From Ignavibacterium sp. (GTDB lineage: Bacteria > Bacteroidota > Ignavibacteria > Ignavibacteriales > Ignavibacteriaceae), in contig JANWVQ010000176.1 in assembly GCA_025056745.1 (NCBI GenBank), positions 1-40,607 on the forward strand: DNA of 40,607 nucleotides, in the 5' to 3' direction. Both the position numbers and the translations under genes were made by a program. Every line of letters starts with the position of its first letter. Positions within the stretch are counted from its first letter, which is position 1. The notes below the pieces were generated by a model. That model saw only the letters and a program-made list of their open reading frames with translations, did not search any database and was not told the origin of the DNA. Of the stretch, positions 323-11,394 are shown piece by piece.

Positions 323-1906
323 TTATAATTGATAATAATCTTTAAAAGGTTTAACCGGCTGGTTAAACTTTTTTACTAAATTCCTTTCGTGTATAAACTC
401 AAAAGCGCAGATTAAAGCATCTGGGGCGTCATCCTGAGCACCGTCTTTTTTTGTGCCGCTGAATGAGAAGAACTGCGATAGAAATTTTTCACCATCAACG
501 GTTTTAGAAAATCCGGGCGCAAATTTTATTTTGTTATTTGCATAAGCAAGCTGCAAGTTTTTAGCAAGGTCATCAACACGATAGCGTTTATATTCTATAT
601 GCGGAAAAGGTATCGAATTAATTTTAGTATAATTTCGTATGTGTTGAGACCAAGTAGATTCCTGTGATACATTTCCATCGAAGGCAATGCCGACAATATT
701 GTTAACGGATTGTTTGAGCAAGAAGACGCTTTCAATAAGTTGATTAGCATCGCTAAAAGATCTACAGACAACCTGCGGAATAAAATAAACATCCTGTTGC
801 GGAGAATAAAGGAGCGGAACTATTGCAGTAGTATCGCCTTTGGACTTTTTGCTAAGGTTAGGATCGCAATAGATGATGCCTTTAACATCTGGAGGCAAAG
901 AAAAATACTCTTGATAGTTTTCACGCTTAAAAAAATCTCCATCGGGCGGCACGGGGTTATTTTGAAAATTTGCCTGCCAATCGGATTCAGAAAGAGGTTT
1001 GAGAATTTCTTTAAGTTTTGATTCGGTAATGCGACCGAATTTTTGGTGCCACAGAGGAATTTTATTAAATGCTTTATAAGTGTAAACATTCCAATCGGCT
1101 GGCAGCAAATTATTTTCTTTTTGTAATCTAAGATGATGGACAGCAGAAGTATTAATAAAATCATTTGCAAGGATTAAAAACGTTCCATTTTTGTTTAAGC
1201 TGTGGAAGGCTTCAGATAGTTTCATAATTCTTGTTTCAACTGCATTAGCGGAGAAAGAGGATTCGAGAGTTTCGATGTCATCGCCCAGTAGGAATTGAGG
1301 GCGGGCAAATATATCAGAGTAGCCACGAAGCGAGCGACCTTCAGAAAAAGCGGCACAGGAACGTATAGGATTATTCTGTCCATCAAGCATTTTAATCTGA
1401 AACTCATCGCTGTTAGCGTTGATTACTTCAAACTTATAATCCTGAAGCAGCTTTGCATTTTGCGAGAGTATAAGAAAAATACTTTTTAAAATTTTTGATG
1501 ATTTAAAAATAGTCTCCGAATAAATGCCTGCGGTGTTTACCTTGCCTGTTAATAAAAGCCAGAGCAAAAGTTTTTTTGCAGTAACAGTTTTTCCGTGTTT
1601 GCGAGGACCGATAAAAAGATGGAAACCCGGTAATAAAGAAGCCTTAACAATATCTTTAAGCATTGAGTTAGGAGCCGCATAATCTTCGTAAAGCAAGGGC
1701 GGGAAATAAAATTTATCAAAGTTCCAAAAGGATAATTTTGAGAGTTCTTTTCTTTTTTCGATTGCGACTTTTGTTGCGTCTTTACCTTTGAATTCTTCTA
1801 TTTTAAAGCCGAGAGAAGATTTTTTTAATTCATCAAGTTCTTTTTGCAAATCGTTTTGCTTGATGAACTCATCCATTGAATATTTTGAAAGAGAAAATTT
1901 TTCCAT
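323..1906 (-). CDS. terL: Phage terminase large subunit (Mu gp28-like)
   Basis: 527 residues, usual length for a large terminase. The ATPase domain has a Walker A motif GPRKHGKT at about residues 100-107 and a Walker B candidate FLLGDDIE at about 206-212. The C-terminal RNase H-like nuclease shows the expected acidic residues: Asp348 in IIYCDPN, Asp410 in GIAFDGN and the cluster DDAPD at 492-496. The enzyme would cut and translocate phage DNA into the prohead through the portal. It follows the small terminase candidate with a 52-base gap holding a perfect hairpin, and precedes the portal. Overall type resembles Mu-like terminases. Confidence 0.9.
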   Translation of the reverse strand: MEKFSLSKYSMDEFIKQNDLQKELDELKKSSLGFKIEEFKGKDATKVAIEKRKELSKLSFWNFDKFYFPPLLYEDYAAPNSMLKDIVKASLLPGFHLFIGPRKHGKTVTAKKLLLWLLLTGKVNTAGIYSETIFKSSKILKSIFLILSQNAKLLQDYKFEVINANSDEFQIKMLDGQNNPIRSCAAFSEGRSLRGYSDIFARPQFLLGDDIETLESSFSANAVETRIMKLSEAFHSLNKNGTFLILANDFINTSAVHHLRLQKENNLLPADWNVYTYKAFNKIPLWHQKFGRITESKLKEILKPLSESDWQANFQNNPVPPDGDFFKRENYQEYFSLPPDVKGIIYCDPNLSKKSKGDTTAIVPLLYSPQQDVYFIPQVVCRSFSDANQLIESVFLLKQSVNNIVGIAFDGNVSQESTWSQHIRNYTKINSIPFPHIEYKRYRVDDLAKNLQLAYANNKIKFAPGFSKTVDGEKFLSQFFSFSGTKKDGAQDDAPDALICAFEFIHERNLVKKFNQPVKPFKDYYQL

Positions 1907-4490: not shown

Positions 4491-5444
4491 ATGAAGATAG
4501 ATCAAATATCCAGTCTAACTGGCAGAGCAGCAAACTTATTGAGCAAAATGTTAGAACTTGCCCCACTGTTGCAATATGCAGAATTTCGTAAAGATTATTC
4601 AACTGGTATTAACGTACCCGATAAGAGTACATTTACCGGAAGCGCAGCCAGAGCGGTAAATGCACCGATTCAGAAAGACAACCAGACACCTAATCCTGTT
4701 ACGGTTTCATTAGCTTTATATGGCAGAGAATTAGGCGTTGATGACTTATACAAAAAAGACGCAGAACTAAGCGGAAGCCCAAACGGATTAATGAGATGGT
4801 TAGATAGACAACTTAGTGCGTTAGCCGTTAAGCTTGCTAATGAAATTCAAGTTGATATGATACAGGGCACTGGTACAAGCAACAGGATGCTTGGTTTGGG
4901 GAATTTTGTTAAAGATGCTGCAGCTGGTGGGCAAACAGCAGCGCTTGGTTTTACAGCTGCCGAGCAAGCAGCAATGAACACACAGGTTTCTCTACAATTG
5001 AACACAACTGCAAACCAAGATAGCTTTATAGAAACGCTGTTCAAAAAACTTGCAGAGGTACCGGGTGCAAATGCAATAATATGTAACGCAAATCTTGCCT
5101 CACGATTAACTACTATTGCAAAAAGACTTGGGGCTGCTGGTGAAAGCATAAATACTTTTGGTGTGCCCGTAACCACGTTTAACAATGTACCGATTGTGAG
5201 CGTTGATACTAATACGATAACTCAGACAGAGAGCGACGGTACCAATAATGATTGCACCTCGTTATATATTGTGAGATTTGCAGAAGAGCTTGGTGTTGCC
5301 TTTTCTACTAACAGCGGATTTTATTTTCAGGACTTTCAGGATTACCAAAGCTCGCCAGCCGGTGTAAGCCGAATGCAGTTCTTTTTAAATTTGGTCGTTG
5401 AGCGTAATGATGCTTTAAGACGATTAAGTAGGATAAGATTATAG
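4491..5444 (+). CDS. Major capsid protein (HK97-type)
   Basis: 317 residues. The middle and C-terminal part has the HK97-fold pattern: a long helix with an NEIQVDMIQGTGTS-like segment (about 118-135), a region predicting the peptide NAIICNANLASRLTTIAK, then the strand pair FNNVPIVSVDTN and a C-terminal GVSRMQFFLNLVVERNDALR. The order of a spine helix, an N-A-x-I-x-x-N element and IVRFAEELGVAFST is typical of capsid and encapsulin-like shell proteins. A good ribosome-binding sequence TAGGAGAC precedes the ATG, 17 bases after the scaffold stop. Major shell subunit of the head. Confidence 0.85.
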   Translation: MKIDQISSLTGRAANLLSKMLELAPLLQYAEFRKDYSTGINVPDKSTFTGSAARAVNAPIQKDNQTPNPVTVSLALYGRELGVDDLYKKDAELSGSPNGLMRWLDRQLSALAVKLANEIQVDMIQGTGTSNRMLGLGNFVKDAAAGGQTAALGFTAAEQAAMNTQVSLQLNTTANQDSFIETLFKKLAEVPGANAIICNANLASRLTTIAKRLGAAGESINTFGVPVTTFNNVPIVSVDTNTITQTESDGTNNDCTSLYIVRFAEELGVAFSTNSGFYFQDFQDYQSSPAGVSRMQFFLNLVVERNDALRRLSRIRL

Positions 5445-5525: not shown

Positions 5526-5765
5526 TTGCAAAGAAAAAACAAACTAAATGATAAAGAGTTTTGTATGAAGGAAAACAAATTAAATGAGAAAGAGAAAATA
5601 ACGTTCACTTTTGGTATTGTGCTTATAGAGGAAGCCAAAGAAATTGAGATAGAAATAGAAACTCAATCTGAAGAAGAAGCTTTTAGTAAGCTGCCAAATA
5701 TTATGAAGGAAAAATATCCGTTTAACACTTGGTATTATAACGGCAAGATAAAAAGAGTGGAATAA
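5526..5765 (+). CDS. Small acidic phage protein of unknown function
   Basis: 79 residues if it starts at the TTG at 5526, which is preceded by a strong GGAGG (5514-5518) at seven bases. The first ATG in frame is at 5565 and has no comparable ribosome-binding sequence, so the TTG start is preferred. The protein is short, charged, with runs such as KEIEIEIETQSEEEAF and a C-terminal WYYNGKIKRVE that reads like a beta strand. It lies between capsid and lysis genes. I do not recognise it. Confidence 0.6.
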   Translation: MQRKNKLNDKEFCMKENKLNEKEKITFTFGIVLIEEAKEIEIEIETQSEEEAFSKLPNIMKEKYPFNTWYYNGKIKRVE

Positions 5766-5768
5766 ACA

Positions 5769-5981
5769 ATGAAAGCGTGGTATAAATCAAAAACGATCTG
5801 GGTCAACCTGTTATCATTGGCAATTGAGTTAGCACAATATCTTTTGAATGCTCAGATAGTGCCAAGCGGTACAATTCTGGTGATAGTAAACTTGCTTAAC
5901 ATAATTCTAAGATTTTTACATACGCAGGCGGTAGGTTTAACAAACGATGACAAAAGACTTAAAAAAGTTGATATTAACTGA
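5769..5981 (+). CDS. Holin-like small membrane protein
   Basis: 70 residues with two hydrophobic segments, about residues 9-27 (IWVNLLSLAIELAQYLL) and 33-53 (GTILVIVNLLNIILRFL), joined by a short turn, and a charged C-terminus. It begins with the WYKSKTIWVNL pattern common in small phage membrane proteins next to endolysins. It overlaps the muramidase gene by 35 bases in another frame. Size, topology and position all fit a holin that would form pores in the inner membrane and release the muramidase. Sequence family not firmly recognised. Confidence 0.65.
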   Translation: MKAWYKSKTIWVNLLSLAIELAQYLLNAQIVPSGTILVIVNLLNIILRFLHTQAVGLTNDDKRLKKVDIN

Positions 5982-6534
5982 ACAAGACTATGATGATGCT
6001 GCACAGTTGCTTGGAGTTAATAAAGCAGTTATAAAAGCCGTAGCAGAGGTTGAATCTGCTGGCAATGGATTTTTGAATAATGGAATGGTAAAGATACTTT
6101 TTGAAGCTCATATATTTAGCAAGCTAACAGGCGGTAAATATGATAAAACTCATCCAAGCATATCAGCACCAAAGTGGGACAAGAGTTTATATAAAGGCGG
6201 AGTAAAAGAATATGAGCGCCTTAATGAAGCCCTTAAATTAAATATAGAAGCTGCATATAAATCAACGAGTTTCGGGAAATTTCAGATTGTGGGGTATAAT
6301 TATTCAAGCTGTGGTTATGCAAGTGTTTTAGAATTTGTTAATGCAATGCAAACAAGTGAGGGTGAGCACCTGAAAGCGTTTGTTAATTTTATAAAAAGTA
6401 AAGGGATGGATAAACTGCTGCAAAAACTTGATTGGGCAGGTTTTGCCAGATCATATAATGGCAGCGGTTATAAGTTAAATCGCTATGATGAAAGACTTGC
6501 AGTAGCTTACAAAAAATATTCTGAGGCATTATGA
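5947..6534 (+). CDS. Phage endolysin, N-acetylmuramidase (DUF3380 family)
   Basis: 195 residues, a single domain with no signal peptide, so it needs a holin for export. Recognisable are VIKAVAEVESAGNGF (about 28-42) with the catalytic-type Glu of the AVxxVES motif, ILFEAHIFSK (about 50-60), a region of conserved Trp/Tyr, STSFGKFQIVGYNY (about 106-119) and the C-terminal WAGFARSYNGSGYKLNRYDE. These are the landmarks of the N-acetylmuramidase family PF11860. It cleaves the glycan strands of peptidoglycan at lysis. Its start overlaps the holin-like gene and its end overlaps the next gene by ATGA. Confidence 0.88.
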   Translation: MTKDLKKLILTEQDYDDAAQLLGVNKAVIKAVAEVESAGNGFLNNGMVKILFEAHIFSKLTGGKYDKTHPSISAPKWDKSLYKGGVKEYERLNEALKLNIEAAYKSTSFGKFQIVGYNYSSCGYASVLEFVNAMQTSEGEHLKAFVNFIKSKGMDKLLQKLDWAGFARSYNGSGYKLNRYDERLAVAYKKYSEAL

Positions 6535-8348: not shown

Positions 8349-8639
8349 ATGAAATCGGAAAAAGTCTATAAAATAAATAACACATACTTTGCACTTAGAG
8401 AAAAATATTCTTTAAGAGACTGGGGAAATATACTAAAGATAATTGGAGATCTTGACCCCGAAAACAATAAAAACAGTTTTATCATTTTGCTTAGCGAAGG
8501 TAAAATAATAGATTTATTGAACATCATATTAAATGGGAAAGTGCCGGAAGAAATATATGAAGAAGATTTTGCAGAGGTAACGAGGGCAATAAACGATTTT
8601 TTTTTAAGAAAGCAAAGTTTGATAAAAAATATAAGCTGA
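8349..8639 (+). CDS. Tail assembly chaperone, short (G-like) product
   Basis: 96 residues, helical and charged, beginning MKSEKVYKINNTYFALREKY. It is the zero-frame product of a gene whose last codons contain nine T residues followed by AAG (8597-8608). The upstream neighbour is the tail tube and the downstream neighbour is the tape measure, which is where lambda G and GT lie. The short form would bind the tape measure protein while the tube assembles around it. Ribosome-binding sequence GGAG at 8337-8340 comes straight from the end of the terminator. Confidence 0.8.
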   Translation: MKSEKVYKINNTYFALREKYSLRDWGNILKIIGDLDPENNKNSFIILLSEGKIIDLLNIILNGKVPEEIYEEDFAEVTRAINDFFLRKQSLIKNIS

Positions 8640-8896
8640 TTTTTGAAAACCTCAACAAAGAGTATGATAAGGTAGTTGCTGAGTTAGAAAAGCTCAGCGA
8701 AGTTGATGTTGATTATTATATGCCTGAAATAAAGGTTGATTTGTTGTTGTTTAAGTTAAGCGGAGGCGACATAAGTAAAACCGCACTAATTGAGAAATTG
8801 GACGCCGAGTTTTGTTTTGACTGGTATTATATGTTAAGAGTAAAAGAAATAAATGAGATGAAAGTTAGAGCTGCAGAGTGGCAAAGATTAAAGTGA
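8600..8896 (+). CDS. Frameshifted extension of the tail assembly chaperone (GT-like)
   Basis: A -1 frame that is open from 8561 to the TGA at 8894-8896 and has no ATG until 8720. The slippery heptamer T TTT TTA (8600-8606) is in the correct phase for the zero frame; after slippage the reading goes on as KKAKFDKKYKLIFENLNKEY and ends RAAEWQRLK. The fusion would be 182 residues: 86 from the short product and 96 from the extension. The C-terminal part is helical with a Trp/Tyr-rich end (EFCFDWYYMLRVKEINEMK). Conserved logic in tailed phages: the longer form recruits tail tube subunits. The frameshift itself is predicted, not shown. Confidence 0.82.
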   Translation, partial: FFKKAKFDKKYKLIFENLNKEYDKVVAELEKLSEVDVDYYMPEIKVDLLLFKLSGGDISKTALIEKLDAEFCFDWYYMLRVKEINEMKVRAAEWQRLK

Positions 8897-9039: not shown

Positions 9040-11394
9040 ATGCCAAACAATGAAATAAATCTTAAAATTACCATAGACGGCAAAGAAGCTGCGGCTGCAA
9101 TACAGCTTACTGATAATAATATTAGAGAGCTTTATAATAGTTTTAAGTATGGCAAGCAGGAAGTTAATGGATTAACCACTGCCATTTCACAGGGGTTTAA
9201 TAATGCAAGAGAAATTATACAGGGTTTTAAGGAAACGTTTAGCGTTTTATCCAGTGTATTCGGCAGCCAGATAAAAGCCTACCAAGAACAAGAATCTGCA
9301 TTAATAAAGCTGAATACTGCCTTAGGTCAAACCGGGCAGTTATCAGAATTTAACGTAAAATCATTAATAGATTACAGTGCAGAGCTACAGCGCACAACAG
9401 TTTACGGTGATGAACTAACTCAGGGAGTTATGGCTCAGCTTATTGCAATGGGTTTGAATGTTGAACAAACAAAGCAGGCAACTTTACAGGCTGCTAACCT
9501 TGCAACAGTAATGGGCACAGACCTTAACTCGGCTGCGAGAGCTATGGCAGATTTATTTCAGGGTAATTCTGGGCTGATAGGCAGATATGTAAAAGGGCTT
9601 GATGAAGCGATTATAAAAAGCGGTGATCTCGACGCAATAATGAGGATGCTTAATGAGAGGATTGGCGGTCAGGCTGTTGCAATAGGGCAGAGCAGTATTG
9701 GTGCCCTTGCAAAAATGAATAATGCAATTGGCGACTTAAAAGAAAATACAGGTAAGATTATAGCAGAAGCTTTTGCACCTTTAATAAGGATGATAAGCGA
9801 TATAGTTGCTGGGCTAAATAACCTATCGCCAGAGCTAAACGGAATAATCGGTTTAACAGCTTCGTTCACAACTGTATTGATAACATTAAGAGTAACAGGA
9901 TTGTTGCCAGCAATTAGCTCTATTGAATTATTTGGAGTAGCTTTAACCGGACTGAAAGCAACGCTTGTTAAAACCGGAATTGGTGCTTTGATAGTAGCAC
10001 TTGGTTATGGGTTGTATGAACTATCTAAAGCTTATGAACACTGGCAAAACGTAAAGGATGCGGGTAAAGAAAGCCATAACGCTGTGCTTGATGAGTTAAG
10101 AAAAAATGCGGAAAATCTCAGTAAAGCACAGTTAAAGCAAAGAATTGAGGAAGTGAAAACAGAAAAAGATAAATTATCGGCTGAACTTGATAAATTAAAA
10201 TCTGATTATGAAAAAAGTTTTACTGTTAGAAAAAAAACTGACAAAGAGGGTAATGAATATATCTTAAAATATGAAAACGAGAAAACAAAAGAGCTTAGCA
10301 CTCAGATAAAGTCAACAGAGCAACTTATAAAACTAAAAACCGATGAATTGAGAATTTATAACCAGATGCTTACCGCTAAACCAACAATCAGCAATAAAGA
10401 CCAAAATAAAGACTCAAGTGTTGATAAAGAGTTTGAACAAAAGAAGAACGCACTTACAGAAAGCCAGAGGCACGCAGAGGCAATGTTAAAGTTAGAAACT
10501 GAAAATGATTTTGCACTTTACCAATTAAAATTGCGACACTTTGATGAAATGATTGAATTATATAAAAAATATGGAAGAGACGTTACTGAATTAGTAAATC
10601 GAAGGACAGAAATAGAAAAAGAAATAACCAAAACTTATAAAGCACCAGAGATAAGCCTCGAAGGACAAACGGAAGATTTTGAACTAAAAAATGTAATTGA
10701 TATTGAAGAATATAAGAGACGAATAAAAACACAAAGCCGTATGGATGAACTTAATTACTGGTATGAGACTGAGAAAGCGAGACTAGATGCTTATGAAGAA
10801 AGTATTGAAGCACAAAAGATATTAGATGAAGAATATAGCAAAAGAAAACGAGCCCTTGATACTGAAGAAACAGAGAATCGAATCCGAATGGCTTATGATA
10901 CTTTTAGCACAATTGGTAATATGGTGGGGCAAAATACTGCTTTAGGTCAAGCAGCCGCAGTGGCACAATCACTATATAATACGTATGAAGCTGCATCTAA
11001 AGCCTTAACTGTAGGCCCAATCATAGGCCCAATATTGGCTGGGGTTATTACTGCTCTTGGCTTGGCACAGGTAGCAAAAATAAGACAGATAGACCCACCA
11101 AAGGGCTATGCAATGGGCGGACGCCTTAAAAAAGGGGAAATCGGGTTTATTGAGGGTTATGGAAATGAAATTATTGCTCCGGAAAAAACTTTTGTGGAAG
11201 TATTTAAAAACGAATTACGCCCGCAAATTTATAGCGGACAAAACACCAGCCGTTTAGAAAATATATTGATAAATTATGTGAGAAAAATTGAAGAATGGAG
11301 TAACTCTATTGAACTTAGAGCAAGTCTCAACAATACGGACATTTATTTGAGCGGGCAATTAGGTAAAGCAATTCTTGAGCGAAATAAATTATGA
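9040..11394 (+). CDS. Tail tape measure protein
   Basis: 784 residues, the longest phage gene here. The N-terminal third has tape-measure features: FKETFSVLSSVFGSQIKAYQ, then a segment around residues 85-200 with ALIKLNTALGQTG and LNSAARAMADLFQGN. Residues about 262-330 are hydrophobic (LIVALGYGLYELSKAY near the end). A long coiled coil follows (about 345-440 and 470-620). The C-terminus has another hydrophobic stretch (about 650-685) and ends with a Gly-rich motif GGRLKKGEIGFIEG seen in many such proteins. It sets tail length and is ejected with DNA; by the usual 0.15 nm per residue the tail would be near 120 nm, a rough estimate. Its stop overlaps the next start by ATGA. Confidence 0.9.
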   Translation: MPNNEINLKITIDGKEAAAAIQLTDNNIRELYNSFKYGKQEVNGLTTAISQGFNNAREIIQGFKETFSVLSSVFGSQIKAYQEQESALIKLNTALGQTGQLSEFNVKSLIDYSAELQRTTVYGDELTQGVMAQLIAMGLNVEQTKQATLQAANLATVMGTDLNSAARAMADLFQGNSGLIGRYVKGLDEAIIKSGDLDAIMRMLNERIGGQAVAIGQSSIGALAKMNNAIGDLKENTGKIIAEAFAPLIRMISDIVAGLNNLSPELNGIIGLTASFTTVLITLRVTGLLPAISSIELFGVALTGLKATLVKTGIGALIVALGYGLYELSKAYEHWQNVKDAGKESHNAVLDELRKNAENLSKAQLKQRIEEVKTEKDKLSAELDKLKSDYEKSFTVRKKTDKEGNEYILKYENEKTKELSTQIKSTEQLIKLKTDELRIYNQMLTAKPTISNKDQNKDSSVDKEFEQKKNALTESQRHAEAMLKLETENDFALYQLKLRHFDEMIELYKKYGRDVTELVNRRTEIEKEITKTYKAPEISLEGQTEDFELKNVIDIEEYKRRIKTQSRMDELNYWYETEKARLDAYEESIEAQKILDEEYSKRKRALDTEETENRIRMAYDTFSTIGNMVGQNTALGQAAAVAQSLYNTYEAASKALTVGPIIGPILAGVITALGLAQVAKIRQIDPPKGYAMGGRLKKGEIGFIEGYGNEIIAPEKTFVEVFKNELRPQIYSGQNTSRLENILINYVRKIEEWSNSIELRASLNNTDIYLSGQLGKAILERNKL

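Follow-up and report, generated by a model that had tools for sequence, protein, structure and literature searches.

A conserved translational frameshift in tail assembly genes was reportedly described by Xu, Hendrix and Duda in 2004. The slippery heptamer of phage lambda is G GGA AAG. In long-tailed phages with chaperones of the G/GT type, the gene lies downstream of that of the major tail (tube) protein, and GT, made at a low ratio, is needed for tail assembly and absent from virions. The G/GT frameshift chaperones of lambda, which have been reviewed (PMC5009743), consist of a short G protein and a -1 frameshifted GT protein, with the heptamer near the end of G and the gene directly before that of the tape measure protein. 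A low shift rate suffices for lambda-type chaperones (PMC5009743), and 6-7% frameshifting has been measured in an HK97-like chaperone cluster (PMC3711429). In phage P2 and relatives such as Smp131, the E/E+E' genes are shifted on slippery runs of the type T6G, T7G or T7C (PMC3931495).

The window, the whole stretch of 40,607 nucleotides from Ignavibacterium sp. that was analysed, is contig C40 of a 2.74-Mb genome and its left part is a prophage (Table 1). This prophage very probably encodes a tail-assembly chaperone of the lambda G/GT type that is expressed by programmed -1 ribosomal frameshifting. It shares with lambda the short G and the predicted -1 frameshifted GT, the heptamer near the end of G and the position directly before the tape measure gene, but its products have no Pfam or PHROG similarity and its heptamer is T TTT TTY. 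As in P2, two tail genes would be joined by a -1 shift on a run of T residues whose length and last base vary among relatives; however, P2-like phages are myophages of Proteobacteria and no P2-type tail genes were identified in the window prophage. Within the known G/GT class the gene is a new member that is orphan in sequence; this placement is well supported, and the proposed mechanism is an ordinary one. It brings a sequence-orphan family from phages of Ignavibacteria, on which the literature searched contains little phage work, into the range of the lambda-type chaperone frameshift.

Table 1. Positions in the window of the predicted chaperone gene, its proposed frameshift elements and the neighbouring prophage genes
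Feature	Position	Strand	Remarks
Terminase large subunit	326-1906	-	phrog_38
Major head protein	4491-5444	+	strand of the head and tail genes
Endolysin	5947-6534
Upstream ORF, 281 aa	7441-8286	+	possible tail protein
ORF G, zero frame, 96 aa	8349-8639	+	predicted short form of the tail-assembly chaperone
Open region of the -1 frame	8561-8893, stop 8894-8896	+	supported by homologues and selection
Heptamer T TTT TTT	8597-8603	+	conserved (family form T TTT TTY); Phe84 and Phe85 codons, preceded by that of Asp83
Heptamer T TTT TTA	8600-8606	+	overlaps the first, in phase; T9 copies only
T extension of GT, 97 residues	8603-8893	+	-1 frame
Tape measure protein	9040-11394	+	PHROG tape-measure families, best E 1e-15
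QacE-like ORF, 68 aa	13941-14147	+	small multidrug-resistance phage family, phrog_1395, E 5.5e-14

Overlapping frames and their conservation in relatives

Two overlapping open reading frames are found at 8349-8896, the second of which lies in the -1 frame and has no conserved start of its own. The T run comprises nine T residues (8597-8605) followed by A8606. The -1 frame is closed upstream by the TGA at 8558-8560 and its first ATG, GTG or TTG codon is the ATG at 8720. The predicted products are a G protein of 96 residues and a GT protein of 182 residues (85 + 97). These results confirm what the original prediction had stated about the nine T residues, the -1 frame open from 8561 to 8896 without a nearby start, and the coordinates and sizes of the two products.

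Under a Markov model of the window, 0.04 sites of such architecture are expected per window, and the + strand has one. With a loose criterion the scan also passes two places on the minus strand (1576 and 934) in the terminase region, apparently shadow frames of that gene. The heptamer scan by itself is unspecific, and in AT-rich sequence an open shifted frame at a T run is only suggestive. Since the two minus-strand places pass too, the significance of the site rests on its conservation across relatives and not on the pattern alone.

Relatives were searched with the G part and, independently, with the T part. Both parts were found at 31 further loci, which are prophages in Ignavibacteria genomes and IMG/VR contigs and whose proteins are up to 57-59% identical to those of the window; the named relatives of the chaperone gene are Ignavibacteriota and Melioribacter MAGs. 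When the window proteins were used as single sequences against viral contigs nothing was found and alignments were needed to reach the relatives; for T, the alignment proved too diverse to be used in the viral-contig scan. A tblastn search of 50,697 phage records with G and T gave no relative. The resulting set of 32 loci, the window included, comprises copies with both parts intact, for which the heptamer, its phase and the open codons were tabulated by script. Because the script reports a locus only when it has a heptamer, those without output were inspected separately. Near-duplicates within the set (L021/L022 and L035/L036) reduce the number of independent events. Copies that were left out are one cut by a contig end in G404, which shows GATTTTTTTACG, one in G044, in which T has one base more than in G047, degenerate remnants in G146, G088 and G158, and a weak and probably unrelated match in G111 C18.

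An in-phase heptamer of the form X XXY YYZ lies at the same aligned point in all 32 loci; it is of the T type in 30 of them (T TTT TTA in G069) and of the A type in two. It is followed by 11-44 zero-frame codons up to the stop and by 85-108 open codons in the -1 frame. The original prediction had proposed comparison of the heptamer with related phages and had named relatives with both parts fused by an insertion or deletion as the sign of a sequencing error. The heptamer is kept with the -1 extension in 31 of 31 relatives and none of the 31 has both parts in one frame, which supports the programmed -1 frameshift in a tail-assembly chaperone that it put forward. The relatives' alignment provides a way to annotate, in dozens of genomes, a hidden coding stretch of 257 nt (8640-8896 in the window).

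The substitution patterns concern the nature of the T part. Between close pairs of relatives the dN/dS of T is ~0.09-0.18 (for example 0.083/0.916 and 0.023/0.234). Between the window and L029, the sequence beyond the zero-frame stop has mismatch fractions of 0.34 at first, 0.24 at second and 0.61 at third codon positions (p=3e-6). The low dN/dS and the excess at third positions indicate that the -1 frame of T is the one in which it evolves as a protein. Both parts are under purifying selection. T could in principle be made as a separate protein of 58 residues from the in-frame ATG at 8720, without any frameshift. However, the conserved -1 protein starts at the slip point, ~39 codons before this ATG. 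Furthermore, the first possible start in the -1 frame lies anywhere from -51 to +237 nt from the slip across the loci, and since its position varies no start is conserved. Synthesis of T from an internal start is highly improbable.

The predicted slip site and the probable mechanism of recoding

Asp83, Phe84 and Phe85 (GAT TTT TTY) form the sole invariant run of adjacent G residues in the broad alignment. Because these codons are invariant, the slip site of the family is assigned to T TTT TTT at 8597-8603. The second heptamer, T TTT TTA or in some copies T TTT TTG, is present only in T9 copies, which make up 11 of the 32 loci including the window. The original prediction had chosen T TTT TTA at 8600-8606; this heptamer is indeed in phase, but the one shared by the family lies three bases upstream. 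A slip at either site would give a product of 182 residues, with one residue different (Phe or Leu). Several relatives, but not the window, also carry A AAA AAA 12 nt 3' of the first site, and this sequence was rejected as the site of the family. At two loci, L059 (G073) and L070 (G076 C2), the slippery site itself has switched from the T type to A AAA AAA with the -1 architecture retained. G076 holds two such prophage copies, one of the T type and one of the A type.

It is proposed that most ribosomes would translate the zero frame to its stop and release the 96-residue G protein. In a minority the tRNAs would slip back by one base on T TTT TTT, or in a T9 copy such as that of the window possibly also on T TTT TTA, and these ribosomes would continue to 8893 and produce the 182-residue GT protein. 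In E. coli, A_AAA_AAG is far more prone to shifting than either U_UUU_UUU or U_UUU_UUA (PMC5009743).

The window's T9 run reaches a length that has been implicated in transcriptional slippage in bacteria (Tn with n>8, PMC3711429; 9 As or Ts, PMC5009743), so that RNA polymerase might add one U and a fraction of the mRNAs might encode the fusion in one frame. T9 is found in 11 of the 32 loci and A9 in two. However, the run types at this one site also include T6C (3 loci), T6A (1), T7 (8) and T8 (7), and in the four relatives with only T6C or T6A and the eight with T7 the architecture is unchanged. L029, a near relative, has T7. A run of nine or more T residues is present in the window but is not what the family keeps at the junction, as 19 of the 32 loci have runs of eight or fewer. 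Polymerase slippage needs a long run and no phase, while ribosomal slippage needs a phased heptamer and no long run. Since what is retained across the family is the phased heptamer and not the run length, ribosomal -1 frameshifting is favoured and transcriptional slippage as the mechanism is unlikely. A transcriptional contribution is possible in T9 copies such as the window. It is equally doubtful that one gene family uses two recoding mechanisms, with ribosomal -1 frameshifting in the T6-T8 copies that is supplemented or replaced by transcriptional slippage in the T9 and A9 copies, the window's among them. The natural series T6C, T6A, T7, T8, T9 and A9 provides a test set for ribosomal versus transcriptional slippage.

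The same series bears on whether the gene is truly in one frame and only appears split because the T run was misread in sequencing or assembly, or is a broken pseudogene. Homopolymers are error-prone, and the extra base in the T part of G044 compared with G047 is an example of such a disruption; it breaks the -1 frame and may be a sequencing error or decay. However, the frame relation is identical in the 31 other loci, T6C copies included, no fused copy was found, and both parts are under the purifying selection described above. The short runs (T6C, T6A and T7) and the A9 runs in relatives exclude a miscounted T run for the family, and error or pseudogenization has a negligible probability compared with programmed -1 ribosomal frameshifting.

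Signals that could stimulate the shift were also considered. No downstream RNA structure is conserved across the relatives. A hairpin ~75 nt downstream in the window was rejected as a stimulator, being beyond the usual spacing and its sequence not being kept in relatives. Shine-Dalgarno-like matches are found upstream of the slip in the window (AGAGG at 8573-8577 and GAGGG at 8582-8586). Such matches show a slight excess over background (-3.9 versus -2.7 kcal/mol, p=0.0009) among loci that are related to one another; the bias is weak, several loci have no match, and a stimulator of this kind is not claimed.

Proposed chaperone role and prophage neighbourhood

Neither the G nor the T part matched a Pfam or PHROG family or a sequence in the PDB. 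Known chaperone families are very diverse and the absence of a sequence match does not exclude membership. AlphaFold models G (pLDDT 86.7) with a beta hairpin and helices. The best match of this model among solved structures is the HK97 tail assembly chaperone gp13 (PDB 2ob9), with a similar predicted fold over 71 residues; however, the Z of 3.5 is weak and tied with 5ir0 at 3.4, the identity is 11%, and common ancestry is not implied. The weak viral structure matches of the G model include Arthrobacter and other tail assembly chaperones. A Foldseek search of the PDB gave no match at E 0.001. The T model had no useful structural match. It is mainly the G/GT architecture and the position before the tape measure gene that point to a chaperone role. 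By analogy to lambda, the partner bound by G would be the product of the neighbouring tape measure gene, and T would recruit tail-tube subunits.

The tape measure gene lies directly downstream of the chaperone gene, and a homologous gene is in the same place in relatives. The original prediction had placed the chaperone between a tail tube gene and the tape measure. The tape measure assignment stands on its PHROG matches, while the tail-tube label of the upstream ORF is unconfirmed, as searches of Pfam and PHROG matched no family to it. This ORF also gave no profile match to the protein at the same place in relatives; one partial relative was found, upstream of the chaperone of G110.

The terminase gene is located at the left end of the contig, on the strand opposite to the head and tail genes, and the QacE-like ORF lies at the prophage's right edge. 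With L029 the window shares 87% identity in the head protein but only ~57% in the chaperone (8349-8896), and the tape measure closest to the window's is that of L020. This is module mosaicism within the prophage family.

Several further observations were made in the relatives. The chaperone regions of L004/L007 (G044) and L005/L008 (G047) are near-identical although the genomes belong to two different genera. In L060 (G158:C236), at 16-1003, a CRISPR-like array with 11 repeats of 37 nt, GTTTTTGAATGAAGTCCAATAAAACAAGGATTGAAAC, at a spacing of ~73 nt abuts a T-gene remnant (~769-1003), and this may be a MAG assembly junction via a phage-derived spacer or a real insertion. L029 has tandem repeats with a unit of ~30 nt at 5659-5965, in an open frame between the tail-protein and chaperone genes, and many 7-nt repeats are found close by.
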